A stretch of 64,000 nucleotides of DNA from Owenia fusiformis (Eukaryota; Annelida; Polychaeta; Sabellida; Oweniidae). Positions within the stretch are counted from its first letter, which is position 1. Every line of letters starts with the position of its first letter. The stretch is taken from the NCBI GenBank assembly GCA_903813345.2, contig CAIIXF020000002.1:31366926-31430925 (forward strand). Direction: 5' to 3'. Of the stretch, positions 621 to 60,853 are shown in pieces. A program made the translations under genes and the position numbers. Under the pieces are notes generated by a model that was not told the origin of the DNA, ran no database searches, and saw only the letters and a list, made by a program, of their open reading frames with translations.

Positions 621-692
621 TGCGTCGGCCGGGAATCGAACCCGGATCTAATGCTTGGAAGGCATCAATGCTAACCTTTACACCACCGACGC
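621..692 (-). tRNA. tRNA-Gly (anticodon UCC)
   Basis: Read on the minus strand this is a complete 72-nt cloverleaf. The 7-bp acceptor stem pairs GCGTCGG with CCGACGC, followed by discriminator A. The D-arm contains GGTGGTGTAAAGGTTAGCA, the anticodon loop is CTTCCAA with anticodon TCC, and the T-arm carries the B-box GGTTCGATTCC. It decodes GGA glycine codons. A short T run lies further downstream on the minus strand (position 611 and below read as A on the plus strand), as expected for a Pol III terminator. It has no intron and the stems are intact, so it is probably functional. Confidence 0.95.
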
Positions 693-861
693 CACTGATA
701 GTTAAATGTAGCATAATTATTTTATCTAACATTCAAGCAGGGCTCCGTTAATTATTTTCAAACTTTACATTTTTAGTCCAGACACATGGGGAGAAATCAT
801 CGAATAATTAGTGCAAAACTGACAAAATGTAATTACTTGAGCAAAATAGAGCCACTAGATA

Positions 862-45800: not shown

Positions 45801-48800
45801 TCAGTCATCATCTGTCAGAAAAATGGAACATGGAGTGAAGCTAACTGTACACGTGTATCTTGTGATATGGCCCAGCAAGAATTACAAGGAGGGACCCTTG
45901 AGGAGAAATGCATTGGAACCAATGGTTACTACCGGGACAACTGCACGTATTCTTGCAACATAGGATACAGCATGAATGGCTCAAATGTGATACAATGTAT
46001 GAAAGACAGGAATTGGACTGCCATCCCTGAATGTCTCATAAAAAATTGTGGCGATCCTGGATCAATTGACAAAGGAATTGTTGCATTCAATTTAACTGTT
46101 TTCAATTCCAATGCCACGGTTTCTTGTGACGTTGGATATGAGTTATCGTCTGAGAGTAATGCAGAAGGGATGATCAGATGTAATGAATCTGGGCTGTGGG
46201 ATGGGTATCCTATTGGATGTACCATAAAGGATTGCGGAACACCTGAACAAGTTGAAAAGGGAGATTTTTTATACGATTTTACTGTTTTCAATTTCACTGC
46301 CACAGTTAATTGTGACACTGGATATGAGTTATCGTCTGAGAGTAACGCGGAAGGAATGATCAGATGTAATGAATCCGGGTTGTGGGATGGGCATCCTATT
46401 GGATGTACCATAAAGGATTGCGGAACACCTGAACCAGTCGAAAAGGGAGTTTTTTCATACAACTTAACTGTTTTCAATTTTACTGCCACAGTTAATTGTG
46501 ACACTGGATATGAGTTATCGTCTGAGAGTAACGCGGAAGGAATGATCAGATGTAACGAATCCGGGTTGTGGGATGGGCATCCTATTGGATGTACCATAAA
46601 GGATTGCGGAACACCTGAACCAGTCGAAAAGGGAGTTTTTTCATACAACTTAACTGTTTTCAATTTTACTGCCACAGTTAATTGTGACACTGGATATGAG
46701 TTATCGTCTGAGAGTAACGCGGAAGGAATGATCAGATGTAACGAATCCGGGTTGTGGGATGGGCATCCTATTGGATGTACCATAAAGGATTGCGGAACAC
46801 CTGAACCAGTCGAAAAGGGAGTTTTTTCATACAACTTAACTGTTTTCAATTTTACTGCCACAGTTAATTGTGACACTGGATATGAGTTATCGTCTGAGAG
46901 TAACGCAGAAGGAATGATCAGATGTAACGAATCCGGGTTGTGGGATGGGCATCCTATTGGATGTACCATAAAGGATTGTGGAACACCTGAACCAGTCGAA
47001 AAAGGATTTTTTTCATACAACTTAACTGTTTTCAATTTTACTGCCACAGTTAATTGTGACACTGGATACGAATTATCATCAGACAGTAATGCAGAAGGGA
47101 TGATCAGATGTAATGAATCTGGGCTGTGGGATGGGTATCCTATTGGATGTACCAAAAAGGATTGCGGAGATCCACCATTAATTACAAATGGCACTGGTGA
47201 TGGTTCGGGTACTACATATGAAGAAACGTGGCATTACGATTGTCACGCTGGATATGATCTTATTGGAGCAAAAAACATCACGTGTCTTGAAAATGCTACA
47301 TGGACAGATGCACCAAGGTGTGAAATAAAAAATTGTAGCTTCATTCCCATTTGGCAAAATGGACATGTAGTTGCATCTAACGGTCTGACATACGGTAGCA
47401 CAATTGATTTTCAATGTGACCATGGGTACATACATGAAGGTGAAACTCGCATAGTATGTTTGGACACCGGTCTTTGGTCAGAACTAGGTGAATGCCAACG
47501 TGTGTATTGTGTACAACATCCAACAATCAACCATGCTTTTGTTTTGAACATAAATAATTATAATGGCTCTGAAATACTAGATGAATATATAAATCTTGAG
47601 AATTTCAATGCAACTGTTGATACCGCAATAGAATACAGATGTGATATTGGATACAATATGTCTGGTAATTCAACGATGACATGCCTTCAGTCAGGCAACT
47701 GGACATCTCCAGCAGAGTGTAATATTGTCCAATGTGGACCACCTGGTGACATCATCAATGGCACCGTCCAATATAACCAAACCTTTTACAACAGCACTAC
47801 GGTATATGATTGTGATGTGGGTAATATCCTGATAGGTAATTTTACTTCGAGATGTCTTGAAGATTCTACTTGGACAACCCCACCCTTCTGTTTGTTTATA
47901 GACTGTCATGACCCTCCATATGTCTCTAACAGTACAGCAGGGTTAACTGACAACAGAACAACAGTTTATGCCAAAGTAGACTATGAATGTGATATAGGAT
48001 ACGACATGGTAGGAAACAGTACAGCTTCCTGTAGTGTTAGTGGAAATTGGAGTGACATACCTGTTTGTGTTATTGCAGACTGTGGGGAACCTCCAAATGT
48101 CCTTTTCTCAACATGGGACCCAAACACCACAACCACCTACGATAGTGTGGTAACACACACATGCTTAAAAGGGTATGAAATGGGAATAATCGAACCAAAC
48201 ACTTCGAGAAATGCCTGTTCTGAAAATGGCTGTAATGATGATGATTTTACATGTTCTAAAAACATAATTTGTGATAAGGAGCTATCTGATAATAGTTCAT
48301 TTGAATGTCCAACAAACAGAAGCTGTGATGAGTTCCTTGATAGAGTTGATACCATTCGCTGCCTACCGACTGGAAATTGGAGCACTACCCCAGTGTGTAA
48401 CCCTAAGGACTGTGGCTTGCTTAATATAAGTAATGGTATCATGACATACTTTGATAACTCAACTACATATGGCTCAAATGTTAGTATATTGTGTGACGAG
48501 GCATATCATCTTAGTGGAGACTCGACATTGCAATGCAGCGCTGATGGGCAATGGTCAAATATAAGTGAATGTGTAGCAATAGATTGTTTCGACGTCCCAT
48601 TTGTCAACTATGGTGAATTTGTCAACCCATCAAATGACACCCTTTATGGAAGTGTGGTGAATTATACATGTGATATTGGGTATTTTATGACTGGCAATAG
48701 CTCCATAACCTGTATGAACAATGGGTCCTGGTCATCCCCTCCAGAATGTACCATCCATAATTGCGGAGGAATGCCTAATATAAGTAATGGTATAGGAAGA

Positions 48801-51209
48801 TTAACACATGAAACGCTCTTCAATATGTCCACAGTCAACAATACACATCTTGACCCATTAAATGGAGCGACTGTATATGTGCGTAATACAACTTCAACTG
48901 ACACGATGGATATCAAAATTGTTACAGAAAATACCACACACGTACCTAACATGACTGTCACTGAATTATGGAATATCACGTCTACTGTTAATATTCTGAA
49001 TAATGATGATGGAAATACTTCAACAACAACTTTTGATAAAATAAATAATTCCATGATAAGCAATGAAACAAATATACAGAATCGGTCAAATGTACATTTA
49101 ATAACATCTGATAGTGTAATCCATAACCAGGAAGACACAGCTTTTAGTACGACATATCTTTCCATGGGGGAATACACCTGTAATGATGGCTTCACTATGT
49201 ACGGAGATCCCACGATCACCTGTATGGCTGACGGAACCTGGTCACCAGCCCCAGTTTGCAGTCTTTATGAATGTGGTGAAATGCCAGTAGTCCACAACGC
49301 TGATGTAGCTGTTAATATTGATAACACGAATGATAAGATTATAGCCACCTTTACATGTGTAACTGGTTACTTAATCGTCGGGAATGAGTCAATCGAATGT
49401 GAAGCTGGTTTCTCGTGGACTACTGATACCCCTAAATGTGAGATTGTGAATTGTGGAATGCCACGAAAGGTTGCCAGAGCAACACGAGAGGTCACAGATA
49501 TTACATATGGAAGCATAGTGAAGTATACTTGTGAGAAAGGAAATATTTTACATGGTTGTCCTACAGCTGAATGCAAGGAAGATGGTTCTTGGGGTCCTTA
49601 CCCAGAATGTTCCTTGGTGGATTGCGGGCCTTTGCCTAGAGTTCAAAATGCAATGAGTCATCTAAGAGGTACCAAGACAACCTATGGGAGAAGCGCATAC
49701 TACACATGTGCATGGGGTCACAGGGCCTATGGCGATACAGATATTCGATGCCAAGCAAATGGTATGTGGTCCTATCCTTGTGTTTGTAGTCCTCTAGATT
49801 GTGGGGATATCCCTTTAGTCTTGAATTCAGGTCATACAGTGAAGCTATCACAAACTATTGTTTTGAAAATCAACTACCGGTGCGATCCGGGATATAAACT
49901 AATTGGTCACCCACAAGTTACATGTATGGAAACTGAAGAATGGTCCCAAGTTCCCAATTGTAATTTGATTACAACCACACCATTGGCAACCTCACCATCT
50001 ACAACCACGACTTCACCAAGGCCATCGACAACTGCATTACAATCAACATTGTTAGACAGTACAACAAAACAATTCACTACTACTGCCGGCACAACACAAG
50101 TGTCTACAACGGAACTGTTAACAACGCTGTATAGTGTTGCCACTGAGCCTCCTAAGGTTGTATACAAGCGGGTTAAAAAGATAGAAATTCCTCCAGAGGA
50201 AGCGAAACATGCTCAGGTATAATAATAAGCTTATTCAGTCAGTCATTCAAATGAAAAAAAACAATGGAAGGTTCTTCACTATAAATGTATACACATAAAG
50301 ATAACTCATGATCTGACAAGAGGTGGGCAGATTCATAAAATCATTATAATCACATCACAAAGAACATTGATCGAGGAAAATAACGCAGATGCGAGTAGGT
50401 AGTTACCAGTTTCACCACCAGGTGGCTCGTTCGGGTTAGATAGCATGGCGGGTATAGTAGACAGTTCCCTTTAACTTAAATTACATCTGTTCATTGGTTC
50501 AATTTTCAAATAATCCTTATGTATTTAATAGTTATGCAAATCAAAATATGTCCAGTAAATGAAAATTTTATCTGACCAATACAAGAAAAGATATTTCACT
50601 TTTTGTGATTTTGTAACATGGGCTCTATGGATAATCAACCCGAACTAGAAGTCACACTTTCAAAAATAATCAAATTTTCAAACTTGATAAACAATTTTCG
50701 AAACCATATTTCTAGATGTACTTTTATATGTAGATTTCAAATATAACATCGCTTTGACTGAATTTTGAATATTTAATGGCGTAAATCAAGATTTTTTTCT
50801 ACTCGCATCTAGTCTATTGATAACGACAGAGTTTTTCAATTTTTGTATTGAAACCATATGACGTCGTGTTTCATTTCTTCCTTATTTTACTCGCACACAG
50901 ATATGTGGCGTCATGAAATAAAGGCATGTAATACAACAATTATGTCCGTATCATTGAATATATGATATATGTAATAGCTAAGCATTGTGGTATATATTTT
51001 CTTTAAGTACGGAATATTATAAATTGTATCTATATGTGGTGTTTCAGGTTGTTAGTATGCCTGTAGCTGTATTTCCTGCTATATTCCTTGGAGTTTTATT
51101 ACTCACAGATCTACCAAAGATCATCCTGGATTGCAGGCAGGGATTTAGAAACATAAGGCATGGACTTCGGCAGTACATTAAATCGAGGAACAGAATTGCA
51201 ACCGCATGA
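12771..51209 (+). CDS. Large modular transmembrane lectin/CCP protein, whole gene span (21 exons, about 2,961 aa)
   Basis: Gene model built from splice sites and phase. The exons listed separately below total 8,886 nt with the stop codon, and every junction keeps frame. Most are phase 1, the usual phase of shuffled extracellular modules. Order: signal peptide; unknown beta-rich module (exons 2-3); two WSC-like cysteine modules (4; 5-6); FTP first half (7); PAN (8); FTP second half (9); CCP (10); LamG-like (11); SUEL-like lectin (12); F5/8C (13-15); F5/8C (16-18); unassigned Cys-containing module (19); 21 CCPs plus Thr/Ser stalk (20); TM and tail (21). Two further candidate exons (37,754-37,845 and 38,169-38,391) would together also keep frame. 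The mix of carbohydrate-binding and complement-control modules suggests a cell-surface recognition, adhesion or immune protein; this is inference. I do not recognise a named orthologue. Confidence 0.75.
12853..14601 (+). other. Intron 1, carries foldback element 2
   Basis: 1.75-kb intron. Apart from the inverted repeat at about 13,735-14,454, I see no exon or RNA gene in it. Short frames at 12,942-13,419 show no domain. Confidence 0.6.
13735..14454. mobile_element. Foldback element 2 (about 720 bp, imperfect inverted repeat)
   Basis: The left arm begins near GATCAAAGGAGTGGTATCGAT; the right arm ends with the inverse of GAGCAAAGGAGAGGTATCGA. Matching landmarks in both arms are TTCTCTTAAACCA, TTTCCGAACCTC, TTGGAACA and GATTTTAAAAAAGTAT. 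The centre is near 14,085-14,100 (AAAGATTTATCTTGATTTTT). The arms are more diverged than those of foldback elements 1 and 3, so the element is older. Confidence 0.7.
14602..14867 (+). CDS. Exon 2: first half of an unrecognised beta-rich module
   Basis: Acceptor TTTACAG, donor ATAACG|GTAAGA; enters in phase 1 and leaves in phase 0. Translation starts VCPRSLGYVKPLPTGQGDWF and includes APCSGTVVAWEYYAVYN and GFNVYVRNIT. The pattern of alternating hydrophobic strands with aromatic residues suggests a beta-sandwich, possibly carbohydrate-binding. I do not recognise a family. Confidence 0.8.
14868..16282 (+). other. Intron 2, filled with dispersed repeat (about 14,900-15,950)
   Basis: It begins with a repeat CCACCGAACTATGTCCGGTA then GCGATATAGAGAAGCC, related to a copy near 62,090. 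The phrase TTTGRTCAGAATTTWTR...GCATATGGGCA-like is repeated near 15,045 and 15,820, so internal duplication is likely. No exon seen. Confidence 0.5.
16283..16520 (+). CDS. Exon 3: second half of the unrecognised module
   Basis: Acceptor GATCCAG, donor CATATG|GTAAGT; phase 0 in, phase 1 out. Translation starts MMKGDVIGFMADSETVGSVQ and ends SIKALYTYG. It continues the beta-strand-rich pattern of exon 2, and the phase 0 junction between the two is the only module-internal one here, so the two exons probably make one domain of about 170 residues. Confidence 0.78.
16521..18542 (+). other. Intron 3 with a dispersed repeat and foldback element 3
   Basis: The part from about 16,750 to 17,095 is a diverged copy of the sequence at about 6,755-7,010 (CATGTAGACCGATTGTTGC, CTGTGCCTATTCATTTAGCA). 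The remainder is dominated by the inverted repeat at 17,426-18,300. No exon seen. Confidence 0.6.
17426..18300. mobile_element. Foldback element 3 (875 bp, near-perfect inverted repeat)
   Basis: Left arm 17,426-17,849 starts ACGCGTCCAGTATTTTCGTC. Right arm 17,864-18,300 is its inverse and ends ATTGGACGCGT. A 14-bp spacer lies at the centre, between GTACTGGACGCAAGCC and GGCTTGCGTCCAGTAC. The motif CTGGACGCA or its inverse occurs at both outer ends and at the centre, so each arm itself carries terminal repeats. Transcribed as part of the intron, it would form a hairpin of more than 400 bp. Confidence 0.88.
18543..18830 (+). CDS. Exon 4: WSC-like cysteine module, copy 1
   Basis: Acceptor ATTACAG, donor CATTAG|GTAAGT; phase 1 in and out. 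Contains GCWVDKATRAMTSLEG, LDGTYGERQDAINKCF, YFALQRGFCSGSA, YAKYGKSESC and GKGGIWINNVYRI. This GC..D..R / LEG / AI.KC / Q.G.C / YG.S..C / N.VY.I signature is a recurring extracellular module of invertebrate proteins that resembles WSC domains. A carbohydrate-binding role is inference. Confidence 0.85.
19072..19183 (+). CDS. Exon 5: WSC-like module copy 2, first part
   Basis: Acceptor TTGTAG, donor ATTGG|GTAATG; phase 1 in, phase 2 out. Translation GFRSIGKCYATPHNGLNSLE continues to VDAIG, matching the first half of exon 4 (GC..D..R...LEG). The intron that splits this copy is absent from copy 1. Confidence 0.78.
19353..19410 (+). pseudogene. Decayed duplicate of the start of exon 6
   Basis: AATTAGGAAATGCTACACAT repeats the acceptor and first bases of exon 6 (AATTAGGAAATGCTACACCG), and similarity runs on through ACGGAACRTG and CTACA-ATATTTC before fading. 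It is about 130 bp upstream of the real exon. An in-frame stop follows quickly, so it is a non-coding relic with a still usable splice acceptor. Confidence 0.6.
19484..19659 (+). CDS. Exon 6: WSC-like module copy 2, second part
   Basis: Acceptor CAATTAG, donor AAATG|GTAGCA; phase 2 in, phase 1 out. Contains KCYTVALNNGYKYFGLQDGG, LCLAGS and ECGAEGDGGP, then FMVYKILN, matching the second half of exon 4. Confidence 0.8.
19660..21801 (+). other. Intron 6 with an odd degenerate-repeat patch (19,780-20,650)
   Basis: From 19,780 to about 20,650 the sequence is less AT-rich and dense in GACGTA, GAACGA and CTGTTTAYGAAC motifs. A phrase related to ATTACGACGTTGTGTAG recurs near 19,997, 20,212 and 20,555. 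The open frames on both strands there show no protein family. The remainder, to 21,801, is ordinary AT-rich intron. Confidence 0.45.
21802..22005 (+). CDS. Exon 7: fucolectin/tachylectin (FTP) module, first half
   Basis: Acceptor ATTTTAG, donor ACAGG|GTAAGC; phase 1 in and out. Translation DNVAFGKTTTQSS, then YWRIDLGLDVYISKLVIHPV, is the N-terminal half of an FTP/F5/8C-like jelly roll (N.A.GK..TQSS ... WWRVDLG ... V..I). Known FTP modules bind fucosylated glycans. The expected continuation (LxNFxIxIG) is not in the next exon but in exon 9, 9.4 kb downstream. Confidence 0.85.
22006..22431 (+). other. Intron 7, contains a dispersed-repeat fragment
   Basis: Has a GGGGCGGACCTGAAAATTAA ... CATATCCGCCACTGC repeat with poly-C, similar in type to one near 43,032. 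I looked for an FTP C-terminal half here and found none. Confidence 0.5.
22432..22677 (+). CDS. Exon 8: PAN/apple domain
   Basis: Acceptor TATATAG, donor CCAG|GTAAAT; 246 nt, phase 1 in and out, hence a symmetrical cassette. Motifs: FEQCKVICINYLNCLSFDYN and DRKCYISD, with flanking cysteines in NSCIIG and EACTG. These match the PAN pattern (C...C....C.SF.Y....K.C). PAN domains mediate protein or glycan binding. It lies between the two halves of the FTP module. Confidence 0.8.
22678..25175 (+). repeat. Intron 8 part 1: hairpin-repeat cluster
   Basis: No exon seen. Contains a TTTGCG-rich patch with the end CCTCATTATCCGGTC at 23,206-23,220. It also holds a near-perfect hairpin with arms 23,526-23,570 and 23,590-23,644 (GATACAGGGTATATCTGAGG and its inverse), a second at 23,668-23,735 (CAGCGGTCAGATATA / TATATCTGCCCGCTG), a third at about 23,985-24,060 (ATGGGATAAA ... 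TTTATCCCAT), and a fourth at about 24,450-24,575. Two of these are followed by the same phrase, CCTCCCAYTAMATAACCT, so they are members of one family. Confidence 0.6.
25180..25500 (-). pseudogene. PIF/Harbinger (HARBI1-like) transposase, first-exon fragment
   Basis: Minus-strand translation contains LEMTDDEILNRYRMPRPLIL, ASRTRNPQAIPCQLKVFISL, RFYATGCMQMINGDIFGVSQ and PTVSNIVAEVSAVFSR. This is the conserved N-terminal part of Harbinger nucleases (ARYR..R..I..L, T.R..A.....Q....L.FYATG.....GD..GVSQ.TVS). The frame ends at a plausible donor, CTCTAG|GTAGGC (25,180). The DDE catalytic part was not found nearby on the minus strand, so the copy is probably broken, or the rest lies in later exons. 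Confidence 0.75.
25954..27372 (+). CDS. LINE A ORF1: esterase-domain and zinc-knuckle protein
   Basis: 472 residues. The N-terminal third is Ser/Thr/Pro- and basic-rich, followed by a probable coiled coil (about 125-180). An SGNH/GDSL hydrolase-like domain follows (about 197-355) with LLIGSSIIRDVD (block I, usually GDS; here GSS), FQIGSNDC (block III) and NRDGLHLAPSGTNRLV (block V D..H). Two CCHC knuckles follow, CFKCGEASHLASTC and CYSCSMLGHKTHKC. ORF1p esterases of LINEs are described in CR1/L2-type elements and bind RNA. The start ATG is at 25,954 (AACCATGG context). Confidence 0.85.
   Translation: MATNEAFYTVSQLISPDSQDSEIEDNTLSADQLGDLSTSTHNLTSEDGISLQCQQGATPPSSALRRSTRAKAPAARRLKTPKTPHTTQSKPKRGRPRIAQSQPLPSKSSAATSKQRKSTDTFETEVLSLLRTLRTSLDVTNASLAAVQKTNCDLVSQLAAKTAECQSLNAECSSLRKQLNNKSSETRVTPNPASPSKTLLIGSSIIRDVDSSKLDTENVHTECIRGGKISDVCDKIAKADSTYDNIIFQIGSNDCAASDNAETIVDSYKLLLAGGHAIAKSISVSSICPRTDNANAHTTAQAVNAELQVLCENMENTNFVNNDSSFILQDGTVNEGFLNRDGLHLAPSGTNRLVYNMGLTKKVKSVTKPWNNHFHRNSQQNSHAHKDPGTRPQPSISPPPRVHIAGNNLSLRQGNRKTPNNSRPACFKCGEASHLASTCWHPGPVRCYSCSMLGHKTHKCPNNANFPCSNRF
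27406..30404 (+). pseudogene. LINE A ORF2: endonuclease-deleted, frameshifted reverse transcriptase
   Basis: Only the edges of the APE endonuclease remain: FKVLFNNVQRLG is followed directly by HSTIDYVLVN and GSDHSMIYIEL, with the roughly 200-residue core missing but the frame kept. RT begins with NKSCGIDRIPNEFLKYGG. A frameshift near 28,600-28,640 moves to the frame with NYRGITVTSNMYKLYAALME and FLDISKAFDVV. A second near 28,895-28,920 moves to the frame with GIRQGCALSPTLFLLIINDL and LLYADDVVLISE. The C-terminus has the knuckle CKLCNLNVIDDPIHRFLFC. The catalytic YADD survives but the copy cannot make a full ORF2 protein. Confidence 0.88.
30648..30732 (+). pseudogene. Possible remnant of a cysteine-module exon
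   Basis: Acceptor ATTTTTAG is followed by a phase-1 frame, VGCLKGHFLDFYNDNVNLNR then KTIKILDDM, resembling the start of a WSC/apple-type module. It then runs into the TTTGCG-rich element without a usable donor in the right phase. It may be a host exon broken by insertion, or chance. Omitting it keeps the gene in frame. Confidence 0.3.
30733..31071. repeat. TTTGCG-rich transposon end
   Basis: About 340 bp dense in TTTGCG/GCGATT motifs, ending GACCGGATAATGAGGCCTC. It is the inverse of the end at 23,201-23,220 (GAGCCCTCATTATCCGGTC), which is also followed by TTTGCG-type motifs. Subterminal arrays of a short motif next to an inverted terminal sequence are typical of DNA transposons. Confidence 0.55.
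31455..31667 (+). CDS. Exon 9: FTP module, second half
   Basis: Acceptor TTGTAG, donor GAGC|GTAAGT; phase 1 in and out. Translation DLNNFGIYIGQDNINIDD, then RCYTELRGRYVMIQKNIPEF, then LGLCQVEVYVE, is the C-terminal half of an FTP jelly roll (L.NF.I.IG ... C....GRYV.I ... L.LCEVEVY). Joined straight to exon 7 it gives an uninterrupted FTP domain. Confidence 0.85.
31668..32075 (+). other. Intron 9, nothing recognised
   Basis: 408 bp of AT-rich sequence without repeat or coding signal that I can support. Confidence 0.5.
32076..32255 (+). CDS. Exon 10: single CCP/sushi domain
   Basis: Acceptor AATCAG, donor TTCAG|GTAATA; 180 nt, phase 1 in and out. Contains DCSGVPLNPHTRLL, GDVAIFECLPGNNMVNG and ITCLANGEWSDASLVCSG: four CCP cysteines and the invariant Trp. 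This one-exon-per-CCP layout is the usual one and contrasts with the 21 CCPs of exon 20. Confidence 0.88.
32256..32794 (+). other. Intron 10, nothing recognised
   Basis: 539 bp AT-rich intron; no repeat family or exon seen. Confidence 0.5.
32795..33433 (+). CDS. Exon 11: LamG/concanavalin-like domain
   Basis: Acceptor TTTTAG, donor ATCAG|GTAAGT; 639 nt, phase 1 in and out. Starts GCCDLIKKSGTILLHNYNAL. Strand-like segments ISLELWMDLDLMLGHTVITS, FNLIFQNGTVAASFIG, NIVYVVVTKSETAFDLYMNA and VAGVIYSFHLG match the LamG jelly-roll pattern (LELWV... W.HVVVT.....LYVNG ... G.I..F.LG). Probable glycan or protein ligand binding. Confidence 0.7.
33434..33932 (+). other. Intron 11, nothing recognised
   Basis: About 500 bp, AT-rich; no exon or repeat family identified. 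Confidence 0.5.
33933..34316 (+). CDS. Exon 12: SUEL/rhamnose-binding-lectin-like domain
   Basis: Acceptor AATAAG, donor CCAG|GTAAAA; 384 nt, phase 1 in and out. WLFVTAQYDRRAVGCE and VTSCPSGSVWVHQMDVGQ come first, and the ending CTDKSFCNISYNEYSNMRRD, then CPHEEKVTIFAKYHC, fits the SUEL/Gal_Lectin C-terminal pattern (C..K.SC.V....Y...DPC....K.L...Y.C). Family members bind rhamnose or galactose. It has a longer middle than typical SUEL domains. Confidence 0.65.
34446..37569 (-). mobile_element. LINE B, 5'-truncated, flanked by an 11-bp target-site duplication
   Basis: Antisense to the host gene in intron 12. The sequence ATGGCCAGAAT occurs directly at both edges (34,435-34,445 and 37,570-37,580), marking target-primed insertion. 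The minus-strand 3' end is A-rich (ATAAATTTAAAAAAAATAAA). The 5' end starts within the endonuclease (PGILFGTCYRSPS), so the element is truncated. Confidence 0.9.
34640..37569 (-). pseudogene. LINE B ORF2: partial endonuclease plus reverse transcriptase
   Basis: The open frame runs from the truncated 5' edge to about 34,827. It shows endonuclease remnants (ILMGDLNAKHSIWY, CIDHILTDS, KTDHSTIVAQI) and RT (KACGPDNITNKML, NYRPITLLSCISKVFEKVLA, FLDIAAAFDRVPH, GVPQGSILGPILFLLYINDL, YIYADDTSLHHP). Near the C-terminus the knuckle region CTCGKPQTLKL is broken: the expected continuation (FQCDLLTIQRQQFMDKL) is in another frame, as from a 2-bp deletion, and then runs to a stop at 34,640. The RT motifs fit the CR1/Jockey group. 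Inactive by truncation. Confidence 0.88.
37754..37845 (+). CDS. Candidate exon 12a (uncertain)
   Basis: After ATAG, a phase-1 frame reads EPCAPGPRLQIQGNRHISSI then YFDKENDTNID, resembling the start of a galactose-binding-like domain. With a weak donor at GAT|GTGGCG (37,845) it leaves in phase 0 and fits the next candidate exon; the better-looking donor at 37,856 gives the wrong phase. Confidence 0.35.
38169..38391 (+). CDS. Candidate exon 12b: galactose-binding-like segment (uncertain)
   Basis: Acceptor AATTAG opens a phase-0 frame, DDQLKKCLKMIGMRTSFHVL, then TDADTFTSCITLAP, SLKVELKQPADIGNIIVNFG. With donor CACG|GTGATT it leaves in phase 1 and joins exon 13. The DADTFTSC...LKVEL...I..I...G pattern resembles galactose-binding-like modules. 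It needs a phase 1-to-0 partner upstream (12a). Together they add 315 nt in frame. Confidence 0.4.
38721..38826 (+). CDS. Exon 13: F5/8 type C domain 1, part 1
   Basis: Acceptor TTAAAG, donor ATAAG|GTAGGC; phase 1 in, phase 2 out. HAVDDRQLTASSSWSHRVDA corresponds to the F5/8C start (I.D.QITASSSW....A..ARL). Confidence 0.8.
38827..39457 (+). other. Intron 13, short hairpin
   Basis: Contains a poly-C tract near 38,938 and a hairpin ATGCCAGAATACCTATCC / GGATAGGTATTCTGGCAT at about 39,285-39,353. No exon seen. Confidence 0.5.
39458..39665 (+). CDS. Exon 14: F5/8 type C domain 1, part 2
   Basis: Acceptor AAACAG, donor CTAGG|GTAAGT; phase 2 in, phase 0 out. GCWAAAVNDQNQWIQVDFET and VVTQGRSDYSQWVTSYTVSH are the F5/8C hallmark WCA...D..QW.QVDL....V.GV.TQGR....QWVT.Y.V. 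Confidence 0.92.
39849..40001. mobile_element. MITE family M, short palindromic copy
   Basis: Ends are inverted: CTTATGCCTGGGTAAC at the left and the inverse of CTTATGCCTTGGTCAC at the right. They are followed by GCTCCGATCCATCTGCCGGC and its imperfect inverse, then GATTGAGTATTTTGTTCAAA and its inverse around the centre. It shares ends with the copy at 41,742-42,125. Confidence 0.7.
40016..40158 (+). repeat. 143-bp direct repeat, copy 1
   Basis: Identical as read to 40,634-40,776, starting TTCACCAATTGTTTTTATAT and ending TATTAGTATTTTTTA. The two copies lie 618 bp apart on either side of exon 15. Confidence 0.9.
40458..40587 (+). CDS. Exon 15: F5/8 type C domain 1, part 3
   Basis: Acceptor CAATAG, donor TTTTTG|GTGAGT; phase 0 in, phase 1 out. 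VFTGNTDRNTKVAHQFLPEF and ARIVRIHPREYN, then MSMRFDIFG, match the F5/8C end (F.GN.D......N.....A.Y.R..P..W.....MR.E..G). Confidence 0.9.
40634..40776 (+). repeat. 143-bp direct repeat, copy 2
   Basis: Second copy of the 40,016-40,158 sequence, with no difference that I can see. Because it includes a TTTTTTTAG-like tract (ATTATTTTTTAG), both copies could act as cryptic acceptors. Confidence 0.9.
40848..41708. mobile_element. Foldback element 4 (about 860 bp, imperfect inverted repeat)
   Basis: Left-arm landmarks AGTCATATAAATC, TTTGGATATTTATTTTTT, TTTCCTGGCCTGTCT and TAATCTTACCTTAG-like/AAACGCTTG recur inverted in the right arm (GATTTATATGACT, AAAAATAAATATCCAAA, AGACAGGCCAGGAAA, CAAGCGTTTTACG, CTAAGGTAAGA). 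Similarity continues inwards through TTCCGGG and ATGTAAAAC to a centre near 41,280. The arms are clearly diverged. Confidence 0.75.
41742..42125. mobile_element. MITE family M, longer copy
   Basis: Left terminal inverted repeat AATGCCTAGCTCACATAAGC then TCCGATTCATCGACCGGCGC. The right end reads as the inverse, AATGCCTAGTTCACGTAAGC then ACCGATTCAGCGGCCGGCGC. The interior is unrelated to coding sequence. It ends about 10 bp before exon 16. Confidence 0.75.
42136..42271 (+). CDS. Exon 16: F5/8 type C domain 2, part 1
   Basis: Acceptor TTTCAG, donor GTTGG|GTACGT; phase 1 in, phase 2 out. MELIEAMNVPDDQISASSTH, then ATLGTRARLYYTGSVG, fits the F5/8C start. Phases are identical to exon 13. Confidence 0.85.
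42475..42673 (+). CDS. Exon 17: F5/8 type C domain 2, part 2
   Basis: Acceptor ATATAG, donor GACAAG|GTACAC; phase 2 in, phase 0 out. CRSWCARRDEDQYIEVDLGR and VSGVGTQGRNAYPQWVTSYK are F5/8C hallmarks, parallel to exon 14. Confidence 0.92.
42674..44247 (+). other. Intron 17, fragments of dispersed repeats
   Basis: Includes a GGGGCGGATCTAGGAA plus poly-G repeat at about 43,032-43,140, similar in type to 22,150-22,320. A minus-strand frame at 43,396-43,704 (FKNQYLESKARRPRDISFIL) may be a decayed protein fragment but matches no family I know. Confidence 0.45.
44248..44392 (+). CDS. Exon 18: F5/8 type C domain 2, part 3
   Basis: Acceptor TTTCAG, donor CATATG|GTATAG; phase 0 in, phase 1 out. IFNGNTDTDTLVYHTLLPDG, then ARYVRFNPVTWLSHISMRIG, then IYGFPYG, completes the domain in parallel with exon 15. 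Confidence 0.9.
44748..45060 (+). repeat. Tandem pseudo-copies of the exon 18 end and donor region
   Basis: Four decayed units of about 80-100 bp (near 44,748, 44,826, 44,930, 45,020) repeat CACATCAGTATGAGAGTGGG, then CATTTATGGATAACCATAT, GGTATAGCCTTATT and ATAGTATTAGTAATC. Exon 18 itself reads CACATCAGTATGAGAATTGG, CATTTATGGATTCCCATAT, then GGTATAGCATTATTATATAG. So the 3' part of the exon, its splice donor and the first intron bases were amplified in tandem downstream. Confidence 0.85.
45112..45348 (+). CDS. Exon 19: unassigned Cys-containing module
   Basis: Acceptor ATTTTAG, donor CTTAG|GTTAGG; 237 nt, phase 1 in and out. Starts AYDTPACLKYNIYTRESISA and includes KTECISVLDSPI, FKCGSNSTQHKAVELELMP and VDVCNIAIYRKDLG. 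The strand pattern might be a galactose-binding-like fold, but I cannot assign it. Confidence 0.7.
45349..45681 (+). other. Intron 19, nothing recognised
   Basis: 333 bp AT-rich, ending in the acceptor TTAATTCAG of exon 20. Confidence 0.5.
45682..50216 (+). CDS. Exon 20: 21 CCP domains and Thr/Ser stalk in one 4.5-kb exon
   Basis: Phase 1 in, phase 0 out (CTCAG|GTATAA). Successive CCPs begin at CPPEAGSIEHG, CDMAQQELQG, then six near-identical repeats (46,044-47,160, starting CGDPGSID, CGTPEQVE, then four CGTPEPVE). They continue with CGDPPLITNG, CSFIPIWQNG, CVQHPTINHA, CGPPGDIING, CHDPPYVSNS, CGEPPNVLFS, CGLLNISNG, CFDVPFVNYG, CGGMPNISNG, CGEMPVVHNA, CGMPRKVARA, CGPLPRVQNA and CGDIPLVLNS. 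CCP 14 has an insertion with six extra cysteines; CCP 17 has an insertion of about 120 residues rich in Asn, Thr and Ser. After the last CCP comes a Thr/Ser-rich stalk and the juxtamembrane VYKRVKKIEIPPEEAKHAQ. N-glycosylation sequons are very dense. CCPs bind complement components or other ligands. Confidence 0.93.
46044..47160 (+). repeat. Six tandem 186-bp CCP repeats
   Basis: Unit boundaries at the CGTPE/CGDPG codons fall at about 46,044, 46,230, 46,416, 46,602, 46,788, 46,974 and 47,160. Units 3 and 4 appear identical at nucleotide level and unit 5 differs from them by very few bases; units 1, 2 and 6 are more diverged. Each unit encodes three sequons (NLT, NFT, NES in the core units). 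Unequal crossing-over or gene conversion is implied. Confidence 0.92.
50217..51047 (+). other. Intron 20, nothing recognised
   Basis: 831-bp AT-rich intron between the CCP exon and the TM exon. Its duplicate at 59,632-60,452 differs by a lost T and a 9-bp deletion, which makes it easy to tell the copies apart. Confidence 0.7.
51048..51209 (+). CDS. Exon 21: transmembrane segment and cytoplasmic tail
   Basis: Acceptor GTTTCAG, phase 0. Translation VVSMPVAVFPAIFLGVLLLT is a single hydrophobic segment, followed by DLPKIILDCRQGFRNIRHGL and RQYIKSRNRIATA, a basic tail of about 30 residues, then TGA. This makes the product a type I membrane protein. I see no classical signalling motif in the tail. 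Confidence 0.88.
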   Translation, partial: VVSMPVAVFPAIFLGVLLLTDLPKIILDCRQGFRNIRHGLRQYIKSRNRIATA

Positions 51210-51269
51210 TATATACAGATTTTATCAAAGCAATTCATTTTGTTGGCCTTAATTAACAACAGTTGATAC

Positions 51270-51275
51270 AATAAA
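51270..51275 (+). terminator. Polyadenylation signal of the large gene
   Basis: AATAAA (in GATACAATAAAAAAATC) 61 bp after the stop codon of exon 21; present also in the duplicate at 60,675-60,680. Confidence 0.7.
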
Positions 51276-51702
51276 AAAATCATATATAAATTAACATGAT
51301 TAAATCAAGCTATGCTGAGACATAGTGTATTTGAATTGAGTGTATCCGTGGCTTAAGTAACAACATGCTGTATGTAAAGTGGCACGAGGTATTAGTCTAG
51401 TCAATATTTTTGAAAGGGGGCCATATGATCCACAATATGATTGTCACCCGGTAAGTACCCGGATGTAAAATGGCCGTGTGCAACATATTTCGAGCTCCGC
51501 CAATATTTCCGATTCTAGGACTATAACGAAGGTAATTCTATCTCTAATATTATATGGGAAACTCATAAACATATATACAAGATACTGGCACAATAATTAC
51601 GATTAATTGATGCACGCAAACAGACATATTTGTGATTGAAGTTCAGCGTTCAGCACTTGGCCAACGCCCAACATGTAAATCGAACACCATCTTGGACTGC
51701 CT

Positions 51703-53535: not shown

Positions 53536-56500
53536 TTTTCCGAGCTCAGTTTATGTCACATTTTGCATGTTTCTTATGAATTTGAACCTACTAGCTTGGA
53601 ATGTAGACGGAATTATGCAGAGTGCACTTGCATTGGACGATTTATTGAATTTCAATGATATTGATATTTGTTGCATATCCGAACATAAACTGTTTAATGA
53701 CAATCTGTTTTTCATTAACAGCGTAAACAGACATTATGACTCATTTTCTCGTGCAGATGCATCGCTCGATCCATTTGATCCACACAGACGTGGAAAGGGG
53801 GGTGTATCTTTACTGTGGAAACGTTCGCTTGGGAAGTCTGTGACAAGGCTTAACAACATTTCTAGTGACAGAATCGTAGGTATTGAAGTATTGGTTGAGA
53901 GCAATGTAAGACTTTATATATTTTCTGTATATCTACCTGCCAGCAATTACTCACTGCCAATATTTATTGACTATATAGACAATCTTAGAGACATTATTAC
54001 TTACTATTCATCTATGGGTATTGTAATTGTTTTAGGTGATTTCAACGCCCATCTTAATGGGCCAAGACTTATAAAACCTAAATTAAATGACAGAAGTTCG
54101 TTGTTTCAAAACATTCTTGATGATTTTGATATGTTGTCATTAATGGTGAATGAATCATGCTCAGGACCACCCTATACTTGTTTACCTAAAAACAAATCAC
54201 CACCTTGTACTATCGACCATATTGTCATTCCTTCGTCAAAGCTGGACCTGGTTGAGCATTGCAGCGTATTATCACATGACGTAACACATTTCTCGGATCA
54301 TTTCCCTGTGAAAGCTACATTTAAATTTAAAGCTTCGTCACAAGCTGCCAATGCTTCCTCGACCAGGCCAACTCTTGCATGGGAAAAAATTCCACTTGAC
54401 ACCATTAAAGATACATATACGTCTTACCTTTCAGATAGGCTAGCCCCCATCAAGGACGACGTTGAGCATGATCGCATACAGAGCACAAGTGATCTTAACA
54501 ATAGAATAGTAGACGCAATGAGTTTATCTGGTGAAAAGACCATACCCTCTAAGAAATTCCGTCCTTACTTAAAACCTTACTGGAAGTTGGGAAACGTAAA
54601 AGAGTTGTATAAAAAACAGAAGGTTAGCAGAATATCTTGGATCATTTCAGGCAGACCTCGTGGTATGTCTCACCAGTCTTACCGTGAATATAAAGACGCC
54701 AAGAAAAAGTTTAGACACGCCCAGCGTCTCGCGATTGATGAATGGACTTCTTCCATTTACGATGAGATCGACACAGCCGCGGAGACTGATCAGAAGCTCA
54801 TGTGGGCTATTATGAAACGTCAGAGAGGCAAAACGATCGCGACATGCGAAGAGCTTAAACTCGGAGATCAAGTGATTCGCGACCCCCTGCTTATTACTAA
54901 CGCTTTCGCCAAACACTCTCATAGAATATTTTCCAAATTATCGTCTCCCACGTTCGATGACGCGTTCAAGACCCGGGTCGAAAACGAGGTCGATTCCATT
55001 TTAGGCGACAACCACGCAATAGCCAATGATCCAATTCTAAACCTCCCTTTCACGGATCATGAGGTTAGTGATGGTATAAGGAAGCTTAAAAAACGAAAAG
55101 CTTCTAGCCACGACGGCATTTCAAATGAACATCTCATTCACGGAGGTGAGTCCATTGTAAGCATTCTAGCTATGCTTTTCAACCTGATAACATTCACAAT
55201 GACTCTACCACTTGCTTTTTCACAGGGTTTAATAGCGAAATTACACAAAGGTGGTCCGAAATCTAGGCTTGATCTTAATAACTATAGGGACATTACCCTT
55301 CTCCCTGTGATAGAAAAGCTATGGGAGTCATTAGTGAAGGTTCGGATTGACAAGACTGAGTGCACTTCTGGTACCAGATTTCACAAGAGCCCCCAACAGA
55401 ATGCTTATGAAAAGGGTCTCAGCTGCACGACTTGCAACTTTAATATTACTGAGACAATCAATTCCAACAGTGAGCTTGGTCAGAAAACATTTATGGCAAG
55501 TCTTGACAGCGCTAAAGCATTCGATTCCATATGGCACGCAGGGTTGTTTCTTAAGCTTCACAAGCTTGGGCTCCAAGGCCGATTCTGGATAATAATGTAC
55601 CGGCTGTACAGCAATTTAAGCGGCGCGATAATCTTTAAGGGGCATCAGTCTGATTGGTTCTCTATCAGTCAATCAGTCCGCCAAGGCGGGGTGCTTTCGG
55701 GCTGGCTCTACACCCTATACATCGACGAATTACTTTGTCTACTTGAAAGATCAAACTTCGGATCAATGATAAGCTGCATTTCTTGCAGCGCCCCCACGTA
55801 CGCAGACGATGTCTCCCTTCTTGCCAATAACAGGGACAGTCTTAATAACTTGATTTCAATTGCCATTAATTACTCCCAAAAGTGGAGGTTCAAGATAAAT
55901 GTTTCAAAATCAAGCGTGATAACATTTGGCGAGTCGAAACCTGTAAATGAGAAACTACGGAAAACACGCGAGTGGTCTATTCAAAACGATTTGTTAGTTG
56001 AGGTTGATCGATGTAAACATCTCGGAAACATATACCAAGCTTCGATGAAAAACACTGATGCAGTCTCCAGCGCGTGTCATAAGTTAAAAGGCAGTTTTGC
56101 ATCGCTGGCAGGAATTGGTGTACATCCGAAGGGTCTCACCCCTTTAACTGGCATACATCTAATTAAGACCATTTGTATTCCCACTGCACTTTACGGATGC
56201 GAGCTGTGGTTTAATATCACAAAATCGGAAATTCTTAAGTTAGAAATTGCTCAACGTTTCATCCTCAAAAGTCTATTTGAATTGTTCAAATCTACCAGAA
56301 CTGATATTGTATATGCTTTAACTGATCTGTTACCAGTCCAGTTCACACTTGACCTACGAAAGCTGTCGTTTCTCGGTCTGCTTTGCAACATGCAACAGCT
56401 GACGTTGACAAAGGACATCTTTCTGTTTAGAGCAAATTTACTTTACGGCGGAAATCACCGGCAGGCAGGATTTGTCGCCGACATTTCAAACATTCTGAAA

Positions 56501-57031
56501 ACCTACGAATTAGAACAATACCTGATTCAATATCTAGACAACGGGTATTTTCCAAATAGCATCTTGTGGAAACGCATTTGTAAATATGTAGTCAGACAAC
56601 GCTTCCTAGTTCAAAGTGAATCTCAACGCAATGACATCAGAATTTCCGTTTCTGTTTTGAGAGCTCATAATCTTTGGAACTTAGCCAGAAAACGGAATTA
56701 TCTACTTCCGTATATTCTCACAGCAGTCAAAGTTTTAGCCATGCCCGTGAATGACTCCAACCTTCTTTGCGATAGATGTGGCAATTTCTATAAGGATGCT
56801 ATAAATCACATGTTAATAGACTGTAATGAGTACAATCACATGAGGAATAAACTCATTATTGACATTGCGTTACCCAACAACCACCCAGCGTTCGATCCAA
56901 GAGAAATCTGTGCTTCTGTATGCGGCCCTGCCTCGGAGTCATTTGAGATACATAATTTAGAGCTCATCCTGAGATACATTCATATAGTCATATCAGACTC
57001 AGGGATTAGTCTCGTACCCTTATTTGCATAA
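53525..57031 (+). CDS. LINE C ORF2: endonuclease and reverse transcriptase
   Basis: 1,168 residues. APE endonuclease: NLLAWNVDGIM, ICCISEHKL, VLGDFNAHLNGP, TIDHIVIP and HFSDHFPVKA. RT: KASSHDGISNEHLIHGG, NNYRDITLLPVIEKLWES, ASLDSAKAFDSIWH, VRQGGVLSGWLYTLYIDELL and YADDVSLLANN. C-terminal knuckle: CDRCGNFYKDAINHMLIDC. All catalytic motifs are present. The ATG at 53,525 overlaps the end of ORF1 (11 nt), so translation may depend on termination-reinitiation; a second ATG at 53,569 could also serve. Confidence 0.93.
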   Translation: MWTSFPSSVYVTFCMFLMNLNLLAWNVDGIMQSALALDDLLNFNDIDICCISEHKLFNDNLFFINSVNRHYDSFSRADASLDPFDPHRRGKGGVSLLWKRSLGKSVTRLNNISSDRIVGIEVLVESNVRLYIFSVYLPASNYSLPIFIDYIDNLRDIITYYSSMGIVIVLGDFNAHLNGPRLIKPKLNDRSSLFQNILDDFDMLSLMVNESCSGPPYTCLPKNKSPPCTIDHIVIPSSKLDLVEHCSVLSHDVTHFSDHFPVKATFKFKASSQAANASSTRPTLAWEKIPLDTIKDTYTSYLSDRLAPIKDDVEHDRIQSTSDLNNRIVDAMSLSGEKTIPSKKFRPYLKPYWKLGNVKELYKKQKVSRISWIISGRPRGMSHQSYREYKDAKKKFRHAQRLAIDEWTSSIYDEIDTAAETDQKLMWAIMKRQRGKTIATCEELKLGDQVIRDPLLITNAFAKHSHRIFSKLSSPTFDDAFKTRVENEVDSILGDNHAIANDPILNLPFTDHEVSDGIRKLKKRKASSHDGISNEHLIHGGESIVSILAMLFNLITFTMTLPLAFSQGLIAKLHKGGPKSRLDLNNYRDITLLPVIEKLWESLVKVRIDKTECTSGTRFHKSPQQNAYEKGLSCTTCNFNITETINSNSELGQKTFMASLDSAKAFDSIWHAGLFLKLHKLGLQGRFWIIMYRLYSNLSGAIIFKGHQSDWFSISQSVRQGGVLSGWLYTLYIDELLCLLERSNFGSMISCISCSAPTYADDVSLLANNRDSLNNLISIAINYSQKWRFKINVSKSSVITFGESKPVNEKLRKTREWSIQNDLLVEVDRCKHLGNIYQASMKNTDAVSSACHKLKGSFASLAGIGVHPKGLTPLTGIHLIKTICIPTALYGCELWFNITKSEILKLEIAQRFILKSLFELFKSTRTDIVYALTDLLPVQFTLDLRKLSFLGLLCNMQQLTLTKDIFLFRANLLYGGNHRQAGFVADISNILKTYELEQYLIQYLDNGYFPNSILWKRICKYVVRQRFLVQSESQRNDIRISVSVLRAHNLWNLARKRNYLLPYILTAVKVLAMPVNDSNLLCDRCGNFYKDAINHMLIDCNEYNHMRNKLIIDIALPNNHPAFDPREICASVCGPASESFEIHNLELILRYIHIVISDSGISLVPLFA

Positions 57032-57178
57032 ACTTGCAGAAGATCTTGTAATCTGAAATTTTTATACTACTTTTAAAGATTGTAAATATGTTGTCACCTT
57101 GTTTATGTTTATGTTTTATGTTTATTGTATTAATCAAACATTGTAATTAGTTTATATGAAATCCGATTTAAAATCGGG

Positions 57179-57184
57179 AATAAA
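57179..57184 (+). terminator. Polyadenylation signal of LINE C
   Basis: AATAAA in GGGAATAAAAGATAC, just before the ATAC-type tail and the junction with the second host copy. Confidence 0.6.
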
Positions 57185-57200
57185 AGATACATACATACAT

Positions 57201-60200
57201 TTACAACAGCACTACGGTATATGATTGTGATGTGGGTAATATCCTGATAGGTAATTTTACTTCGAGATGTCTTGAAGATTCTACTTGGACAACCCCACCC
57301 TTCTGTTTGTTTATAGACTGTCATGACCCTCCATATGTCTCTAACAGTACAGCAGGGTTAACTGACAACAGAACAACAGTTTATGCCAAAGTAGACTATG
57401 AATGTGATATAGGATACGACATGGTAGGAAACAGTACAGCTTCCTGTAGTGTTAGTGGAAATTGGAGTGACATACCTGTTTGTGTTATTGCAGACTGTGG
57501 GGAACCTCCAAATGTCCTTTTCTCAACATGGGACCCAAACACCACAACCACCTACGATAGTGTGGTAACACACACATGCTTAAAAGGGTATGAAATGGGA
57601 ATAATCGAACCAAACACTTCGAGAAATGCCTGTTCTGAAAATGGCTGTAATGATGATGATTTTACATGTTCTAAAAACATAATTTGTGATAAGGAGCTAT
57701 CTGATAATAGTTCATTTGAATGTCCAACAAACAGAAGCTGTGATGAGTTCCTTGATAGAGTTGATACCATTCGCTGCCTACCGACTGGAAATTGGAGCAC
57801 TACCCCAGTGTGTAACCCTAAGGACTGTGGCTTGCTTAATATAAGTAATGGTATCATGACATACTTTGATAACTCAACTACATATGGCTCAAATGTTAGT
57901 ATATTGTGTGACGAGGCATATCATCTTAGTGGAGACTCGACATTGCAATGCAGCGCTGATGGGCAATGGTCAAATATAAGTGAATGTGTAGCAATAGATT
58001 GTTTCGACGTCCCATTTGTCAACTATGGTGAATTTGTCAACCCATCAAATGACACCCTTTATGGAAGTGTGGTGAATTATACATGTGATATTGGGTATTT
58101 TATGACTGGCAATAGCTCCATAACCTGTATGAACAATGGGTCCTGGTCATCCCCTCCAGAATGTACCATCCATAATTGCGGAGGAATGCCTAATATAAGT
58201 AATGGTATAGGAAGATTAACACATGAAACGCTCTTCAATATGTCCACAGTCAACAATACACATCTTGACCCATTAAATGGAGCGACTGTATATGTGCGTA
58301 ATACAACTTCAACTGACACGATGGATATCAAAATTGTTACAGAAAATACCACACACGTACCTAACATGACTGTCACTGAATTATGGAATATCACGTCTAC
58401 TGTTAATATTCTGAATAATGATGATGGAAATACTTCAACAACAGCTTTTGATAAAATAAATAATTCCATGATAAGCAATGAAACAAATATACAGAATCGG
58501 TCAAATGTACATTTAATAACATCTGATAGTGTAATCCATAACCAGGAAGACACAGCTTTTAGTACGACATATCTTTCCATGGGGGAATACACCTGTAATG
58601 ATGGCTTCACTATGTACGGAGATCCCACGATCACCTGTATGGCTGACGGAACCTGGTCACCAGCCCCAGTTTGCAGTCTTTATGAATGTGGTGAAATGCC
58701 AGTAGTCCACAACGCTGATGTAGCTGTTAATATTGATAACACGAATGATAAGATTATAGCCACCTTTACATGTGTAACTGGTTACTTAATCGTCGGGAAT
58801 GAGTCAATCGAATGTGAAGCTGGTTTCTCGTGGACTACTGATACCCCTAAATGTGAGATTGTGAATTGTGGAATGCCACGAAAGGTTGCCAGAGCAACAC
58901 GAGAGGTCACAGATATTACATATGGAAGCATAGTGAAGTATACTTGTGAGAAAGGAAATATTTTACATGGTTGTCCTACAGCTGAATGCAAGGAAGATGG
59001 TTCTTGGGGTCCTTACCCAGAATGTTCCTTGGTGGATTGCGGGCCTTTGCCTAGAGTTCAAAATGCAATGAGTCATCTAAGAGGTACCAAGACAACCTAT
59101 GGGAGAAGCGCATACTACACATGTGCATGGGGTCACAGGGCCTATGGCGATACAGATATTCGATGCCAAGCAAATGGTATGTGGTCCTATCCTTGTGTTT
59201 GTAGTCCTCTAGATTGTGGGGATATCCCTTTAGTCTTGAATTCAGGTCATACAGTGAAGCTATCACAAACTATTGTTTTGAAAATCAACTACCGGTGCGA
59301 TCCGGGATATAAACTAATTGGTCACCCACAAGTTACATGTATGGAAACTGAAGAATGGTCCCAAGTTCCCAATTGTAATTTGATTACAACCACACCATTG
59401 GCAACCTCACCATCTACAACCACGACTTCACCAAGGCCATCGACAACTGCATTACAATCAACATTGTTAGACAGTACAACAAAACAATTCACTACTACTG
59501 CCGGCACAACACAAGTGTCTACAACGGAACTGTTAACAACGCTGTATAGTGTTGCCACTGAGCCTCCTAAGGTTGTATACAAGCGGGTTAAAAAGATAGA
59601 AATTCCTCCAGAGGAAGCGAAACATGCTCAGGTATAATAATAAGCTTATTCAGTCAGTCATTCAAATGAAAAAAAACAATGGAAGGTTCTTCACTATAAA
59701 TGTATACACATAAAGATAACTCATGATCTGACAAGAGGTGGGCAGATTCATAAAATCATTATAATCACATCACAAAGAACATTGATCGAGGAAAATAACG
59801 CAGATGCGAGTAGGTAGTTACCAGTTTCACCACCAGGTGGCTCGTTCGGGTTAGATAGCATGGCGGGTATAGTAGACAGTTCCCTTTAACTTAAATTACA
59901 TCTGTTCATTGGTTCAATTTTCAAATAATCCTTATGTATTTAATAGTTATGCAAATCAAAATATGTCCAGTAAATGAAAATTTTATCTGACCAATACAAG
60001 AAAAGATATTTCACTTTTTGTGATTTTGTAACATGGGCTCTATGGATAATCAACCCGAACTAGAAGTCACACTTTCAAAAATAATCAAATTTTCAAACTT
60101 GATAAACAATTTTCGAAACCATATTTCTAGATGTACTTTTATATGTAGATTTCAAATATAACATCGCTTTGACTGAATTTTGAATATTTAATGGCGTAAA

Positions 60201-60569
60201 TCAAGATTTTTTCTACTCGCATCTAGTCTATTGATAACGACAGAGTTTTGTATTGAAACCATATGACGTCGTGTTTCATTTCTTCCTTATTTTACTCGCA
60301 CACAGATATGTGGCGTCATGAAATAAAGGCATGTAATACAACAATTATGTCCGTATCATTGAATATATGATATATGTAATAGCTAAGCATTGTGGTATAT
60401 ATTTTCTTTAAGTACGGAATATTATAAATTGTATCTATATGTGGTGTTTTAGGTTGTTAGTATGCCTGTAGCTGTATTTCCTGCTATATTCCTTGGAGTT
60501 TTATTACTCACAGATCTACCAAAGATCATCCTGGATTGCAGGCAGGGATTTAGAAACATAAGGCATTGA
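57201..60569 (+). pseudogene. Orphan duplicate of the 3' exons (10 CCPs, stalk, TM)
   Basis: Begins inside CCP 12 and keeps an open frame to the donor at 59,631, then the TM exon from 60,453. In the TM exon GGA has become TGA (60,567-60,569), so the tail would end ...GFRNIRH and lose the last 15 residues. The frame upstream meets a TAA in the LINE tail at 57,181, and there is no start codon, promoter or signal peptide. The native gene has its own poly-A signal before the LINE, so this copy is probably not part of the normal transcript. Confidence 0.88.
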
Positions 60570-60674
60570 CTTCGGCAGTACATTAAATCGAGGAACAGAA
60601 TTGCAACCGCATGATATATACAGATTTTATCAAAGCAATTCATTTTGTTGGCCTTAATTAACAACAGTTGATAC

Positions 60675-60680
60675 AATAAA
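60675..60680 (+). terminator. Duplicated polyadenylation signal
   Basis: AATAAA in the second copy, equivalent to 51,270-51,275. Confidence 0.6.
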
Positions 60681-60853
60681 AAAATCATATATAAATTAAC
60701 ATGATTAAATCAAGCTATGCTGAGACATAGTGTATTTGAATTGAGTGTATCCGTGGCTTAAGTAACAACATGCTGTATGTAAAGTGGCACGAGGTATTAG
60801 TCTAGTCAATATTTTTGAAAGGGGGCCATATGATCCACAATATGATTGTCACC

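Follow-up and report, generated by a model that had tools for sequence, protein, structure and literature searches.

A full-length LINE between two copies of a 3.65-kb direct repeat in Owenia fusiformis: a probable kilobase-scale target-site duplication

The stretch of DNA considered here (the window: 64,000 nucleotides, G000:C2:31366926-31430925, in a genome of 498.26 Mb and 525 contigs) contains a LINE, referred to below as LINE C, that lies exactly between two copies of one 3.65-kb segment of host DNA. This arrangement was probably created in one event, in which LINE C was inserted by target-primed reverse transcription and left a 3.65-kb duplication of its target; it may represent one end of a broad range of target alterations made by this family, rather than an isolated freak.

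Self-alignment of the window gives positions 47785-51448 and 57200-60853 as one direct-repeat match of 3,664 columns at 99.645% identity, and chance could not remotely account for 99.6% identity over 3.6 kb. The two copies, which an earlier preliminary description of this DNA had put at about five differences apart, differ at exactly five sites: two indels, one of 1 bp near 50792 and one of 9 bp at 50832-50840, and three substitutions (copy 1/copy 2: 49029/58444, 51045/60450 and 51162/60567), so that divergence by substitution is 0.08%. The insert between them (51449-57199, 5,751 bp) is taken up by one LINE, and the alignment confirms that this is bounded exactly by the end of copy 1 (51448) and the start of copy 2 (57200). 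The junctions proposed earlier are thus exact to the base, but the start of the LINE is not at 51449, since the element proper begins only at 51457, after eight extra nucleotides; the 3' boundary at 57199/57200 stands, with the qualification that a T common to tail and host leaves the breakpoint uncertain by about 1 bp. The features of the locus are as follows.

47785..51448, plus strand: segment copy 1, from the rest of sushi exon A through the intron and the last exon, with stop and AATAAA, into downstream DNA
51449..51456, plus strand: extra 5'-junction DNA, 8 nt
51457..57199, plus strand: LINE C (no other copy found has the 5' end as well as the 3' tail)
51679..53535, plus strand: ORF1, open for 618 aa (without a Pfam match at E<=0.001)
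53519..57031, plus strand: ORF2, a 1170-aa open frame (Exo_endo_phos, i.e. EN, and RVT_1)
57184..57199, plus strand: 3' tail of ATAC repeats
57200..60853, plus strand: segment copy 2, a gene fragment without its 5' part, which the right flank adjoins

LINE C is a non-LTR retrotransposon (LINE) with an AP-like endonuclease. Both PF03372 (endonuclease) and PF00078 (reverse transcriptase, RT) score above cut-off in ORF2, and among PDB structures its RT matches LINE-1 ORF2p at E 2.7e-23, and also the R2 RT; no internal or terminal repeats were found within the element. The copy in the window is apparently intact, and was inserted recently. Eight nucleotides at its 5' junction (51449-51456) are regarded as extra because both of the other 5' ends available (L009 and L010) start at the base equal to 51457. 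At 51449-51461 these extra nucleotides (CGGTAAGT) resemble a 5' splice donor. Together with the final ACC of the host they repeat the first bases of the LINE (ACCCGG), and the end of the element itself may have been their template.

As to the state of the locus before insertion, a paralogue at 85% identity (C2:10161406-10164354) is unbroken across 47785, aligning as a single stretch with 45676-48863, and no LINE C matches were found in the 9.9 kb around it. Since this LINE-free paralogue is continuous across the left junction, the left flank plus copy 1 represents the ancestral order; the paralogue ceases to be similar at 51202, short of the right junction at 60853. When the genome was searched with the segment, the matches listed were this paralogue and many copies of an internal repeat of about 440 bp, and the best 40 of 3860 first-look candidates included no near-identical copy besides the two in the window; likewise, no second near-identical copy of the DNA to the right of 60853 was found among the best 40 of 3966 candidates. 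The internal repeat (50379-50819 and 59794-60233), which lies in the intron of the sushi gene described next and was duplicated with the segment, is abundant and fairly young, most scored copies (among the best 40 of 3860 first-look candidates) being 94-96% identical.

The proposed nick site at 47785 falls inside an open frame of 1534 aa that contains 18 sushi stretches. The relevant parts of this gene, the exon limits having been read by eye from AG/GT and from the paralogue, are as follows.

45618..50216, plus strand: exon A, a large sushi-repeat exon with 18 sushi stretches (open frame to 50222; donor after 50216 by eye)
51048..51209, plus strand: last exon, with hydrophobic segment and stop (frame kept in the paralogue, L021; limits by eye)
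51270..51275, plus strand: AATAAA, inside the duplicated segment
60567, plus strand: substitution in copy 2 that turns the last-exon codon GGA into TGA, a nonsense change (G in copy 1 and in the paralogue)

On this predicted structure copy 1 keeps the whole gene end, because donor, last exon, stop and AATAAA all lie within the duplicated segment, while copy 2 would be a fragment without the start of the gene. Two of the three substitutions could be polarised, those at 60450 and 60567; at both the paralogue agrees with copy 1, so that both are derived in copy 2. This would fit constraint on copy 1, the numbers being very small. The sushi exon also contains, at 46084-47168, 5.8 tandem units of 186 bp at 95% identity, a recent internal domain expansion. 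Elsewhere in the window there is an array of about 11 tandem units of roughly 147 bp with 82% matches (4499-6065), and a 548-aa open frame on the plus strand (9299-10945) which, judging by a motif, may be an inward-rectifier potassium channel.

To turn to the proposed mechanism, the endonuclease would have nicked the bottom strand in the sushi exon at 47785, where the tail of the LINE C RNA would have primed synthesis, as the intact tail and the 3' junction suggest. A full-length cDNA would have been completed, and its far end, with the eight extra nucleotides, would have been joined, rather than to a cut a few bases off, to the top strand at 51448, an end 3.65 kb downstream of the nick. The second copy of the segment would then have come from fill-in, or from the sister chromatid as has been drawn for L1 (PMC7058536), so that the LINE has the segment on both sides. 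What favours a single event is that both breakpoints lie exactly on the ends of the LINE, which has a full 5' end and an intact tail. With the stop and the AATAAA both inside the duplicated segment, the left-hand gene was left intact, and this may be why the event survived. At the eight 3' breakpoints where the nick site is readable, seven share 1-4 nt with the tail and the preceding sequence is pyrimidine-rich at most, both features having been judged by eye with no background test.

Ordinary LINEs leave short duplications, of 13-15 bp for L1, 3-5 bp for L2 (CR1 being similar) and 10-12 bp for RTE (PMC4245944), and it was therefore of interest to compare the rest of the LINE C family. A search with the last 600 bp of LINE C gave at least 43 rows at at least 40 places, that in the window included (best 40 of 82 candidates), and one with its first 800 bp gave five listed rows. 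Eight of the 40 places were left out; 31 3'-side copies were fetched and 30 used, those dropped being L036, whose match stops before the 3' end, and L009 and L010, which have no 3' end. (In L009, at G000:C11:24377000-24382000 together with L025, the 5' end is present with about 980 bp of other DNA inside; its 3' half was not found in the next 7 kb.) Like ordinary LINEs (PMC4245944), LINE C combines EN and RT with a common 3' end, 5' truncations at points that vary between copies, and a short simple-repeat tail, here of ATAC repeats in all 30 copies, some with variant bases. Unlike them, it has no duplication of 8 bp or more adjoining the junctions in any of the 30 copies, the longest shared run being 6, so that the short target-site duplication that is usual in the class, if not required, is absent at this length. 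When junctions from different copies were paired as a control for chance, 8 bp was reached in 0.9% of mismatched pairs, and the letters shared within copies were no longer than those shared between different copies; duplications of 3-6 bp would be indistinguishable from chance.

Longer matches do occur, of 8-10 bp in L012 and L013 at places farther from the junctions, and longer still in the tandem arrays that surround L013, L015 and L019. The last of these (G000:C1:61518200-61520000) is best read as a 78-bp target duplication, though a doubtful one; the 78-bp match is 96% identical, as against 82-88% for other units of the array. A 418-bp match present in both flanks of L005 was rejected as a duplication, the sequence that adjoins the LINE not being part of the match, and L007, with a 90.7% match at 2.96 kb that at first suggested a 3-kb duplication, proved to be a truncation, since its 5' flank ends in a match to the same repeat copy, displaced by 103 bp to the left. 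The 3'-flank search for L004 gave a single 92% match of 102 bp. No kilobase duplication was found in the available flanks of the other LINE C copies (5' flank 0.68-8.4 kb, under 1.1 kb in 18 of the 30), nor, for the 26 of 30 3' flanks that were searched genome-wide, a near-identical second copy close upstream among the best 40 candidates for each. The duplicating outcome accordingly rests on one locus.

A more direct view of what happens to the target is available where a LINE C copy lies within a repeat, as it can then be compared with LINE-free members of the same repeat. The 26 3'-flank searches and the flank of L007 itself yielded seven such candidates, of which six were resolved, and all six lack target DNA, from 80 bp to about 2.5 kb: in each, the sequences that abut the LINE on its two sides lie apart in the LINE-free repeat.

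L005: 80 bp missing (679 against a second repeat copy)
L028: 83-92 bp missing (one of three LINE-free copies, L063, not measurable)
L007: 103-105 bp missing
L006: 218-229 bp missing (3/3 LINE-free copies agree)
L026: 370-376 bp missing (about 1116 if a second hit, in L045, is used)
L017: 1576 or 2478 bp missing (LINE-free copies disagree)

Neither a duplication nor a blunt join was seen in these six copies, though the comparison could have revealed either. By eye, there are extra nucleotides at the 5' junctions of L006 (11) and L026 (4), and short microhomology at those of L028 and L007. Four copies in tandem arrays (L003, L013, L015 and L019) stand outside the six; in L003, 123-176 bp of the 5' flank is unmatched, while several lengths are possible for L013 and L015. 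The preliminary description had suggested measuring the duplications of other LINE C copies: in the six that were resolved the target alterations are long, and all of them are deletions. This counts against a duplication made in a single event, there being no other of kilobase size. What the deletions do argue is that the LINE C family does not keep its second break near the first nick: in the six resolved copies the partner end lay upstream, giving deletions, and in the window it would have lain downstream, giving a duplication.

The same deletions bear on the rival that survives best, namely that a tandem duplication with a unit of more than 3.66 kb came first, and that LINE C was then inserted near its junction with a deletion that removed the junction, giving the same end sequence. 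Deletion, being the only outcome resolved in other copies, could well swallow a duplication junction in this way, but two recent events would be needed, and if the 498 Mb is assumed to contain 200-5000 recent tandem duplications the chance would be about 0.1-2.5% for each insertion, as compared with one direct long duplication among 25 inserts of ZfL2-2 (PMC2666801). We regard this sequence of events as unlikely, though it remains a live rival to the kilobase-scale target-site duplication of the preliminary description, which is still the best-supported reading. That the assembly laid down a single-copy segment twice around the LINE seems to us improbable. The low substitution divergence of the copies would fit such an artefact, but both joins fall exactly on the ends of the LINE in a window with no N bases at all, no other contig with the segment appeared among the best 40 of 3860 candidates, and both polarisable substitutions are derived in copy 2, one of them nonsense. 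Simple merging of haplotypes, also raised earlier, is unlikely for a further reason (of logic, rather than from a test on reads), in that one heterozygous insertion cannot yield a 5' join at 51448 together with a 3' join at 47785. Finally, unequal crossing-over between two LINE C insertions on two homologues, at 51448 and at 47785, would yield the same structure, and ectopic exchange between LINEs is known from L1-flanked variants (PMC12350158), but it is very improbable here, needing two same-orientation members of the family less than 4 kb apart, for which the chance is about 0.03-0.08% with 40-100 copies, and there is no abrupt change of similarity along LINE C against five relatives, a weak test given that close relatives of the 5' half are lacking.

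If a single insertion did duplicate 3.65 kb, one may ask whether host or element is responsible, and other LINEs in the window provide some control. LINE A (34445-37561, minus strand), sampled as the window copy plus six of 39 other rows listed, has duplications of 10-13 bp in 5/7 copies, the window copy included, while no mismatched pair of its junctions reaches 8 bp; in L074 and the window copy, 8-9 extra nucleotides lie between duplication and element. Against 0/30 for LINE C this gives a Fisher p of about 5e-5, or 5e-4 (4/7 against 0/30) if L074, which sits in a local repeat, is left out. Because LINE A shows such duplications, the host can make ordinary ones and the method can see them. 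LINE B (about 25936-30574, plus strand) has an interrupted ORF2, an AAAT tail and truncated other copies; its ORF1 gives weak matches, below cut-off, to OSK/GDSL-esterase and zinc-knuckle models. No clear duplication was found in 13 LINE B copies (there is one 9-bp match and one 8-bp AT-only match), the boundaries being made unsure by the AT-rich tail; L049, the sole copy with many repeat relatives among the matches listed, gave no readable target change. Two of the three families tested are thus without clear duplications, and LINE C may not be alone in lacking them. Loss of host Ku was considered as a cause and set aside: the genome contains one stretch that matches a Ku domain (43/190 model positions, 29.3 bits against a cut-off of 25), which does not prove a working pathway, and the duplications of LINE A make a host-wide cause less likely.

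Target duplications of kilobase size made by LINEs, and tandem duplications bridged by a LINE, have been published before. The closest parallel is ZfL2-2, a zebrafish L2-clade LINE, to which LINE C is likened by its target alterations and not by clade. In wild-type chicken DT40 cells ZfL2-2 gave one 1228-bp target duplication among 25 inserts, in Ku70-null cells it gave long truncations of 343-50187 bp in 5/25, and about 40% of genomic copies have extra 5' nucleotides (PMC2666801). Both elements have long target alterations, with extra nucleotides or microhomology at their 5' junctions, and the LINE C pattern resembles that of ZfL2-2 in Ku70-null cells, with its frequent truncations, combined with the single wild-type duplication (PMC2666801). 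The difference is one of frequency: long alterations by ZfL2-2 are rare in wild-type cells (1/25), whereas they are the sole kind resolved for LINE C in its natural genome (6/6, or 7/7 with the window copy). The corresponding Fisher p is about 1e-5 for 6/6, a rough figure as hosts and methods differ, and 2e-6 for 7/7, where in addition the window copy was chosen for its length. In human cancer, a 22.6-Mb tandem duplication bridged by a small L1 has been explained by a sister-chromatid model, with an endonuclease motif at the 3' end in such L1-mediated duplications (PMC7058536). These share with LINE C a single element that bridges both ends of a direct tandem duplication, but they are somatic and megabase-sized (PMC7058536), as against 3.65 kb, a full-length element and presumably the germline. 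In the part of the literature consulted, no report was found of a natural LINE family in which long truncations are the rule, and LINE C, in which every target alteration that was resolved is long, seems new in this respect.

How LINE insertion is completed, by second-strand cutting and 5' joining, has been described as very poorly understood (PMC6895275). It is conceivable, and we offer this tentatively, that LINE C is a LINE without a programmed second-strand cut, whose cDNA, after priming at the nick, is joined to any end that lies within kilobases; its normal products would then be deletions of some size and, at times, duplications, in a genome where at least one other LINE makes duplications of 10-13 bp. 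The contrast within one genome, long for LINE C and normal for LINE A, points beyond the host to the element itself as a cause, and provides material for testing how LINEs finish insertion. Parts of genes could be duplicated or deleted in the germline by a LINE in this way; here, the gene that was hit was left whole.
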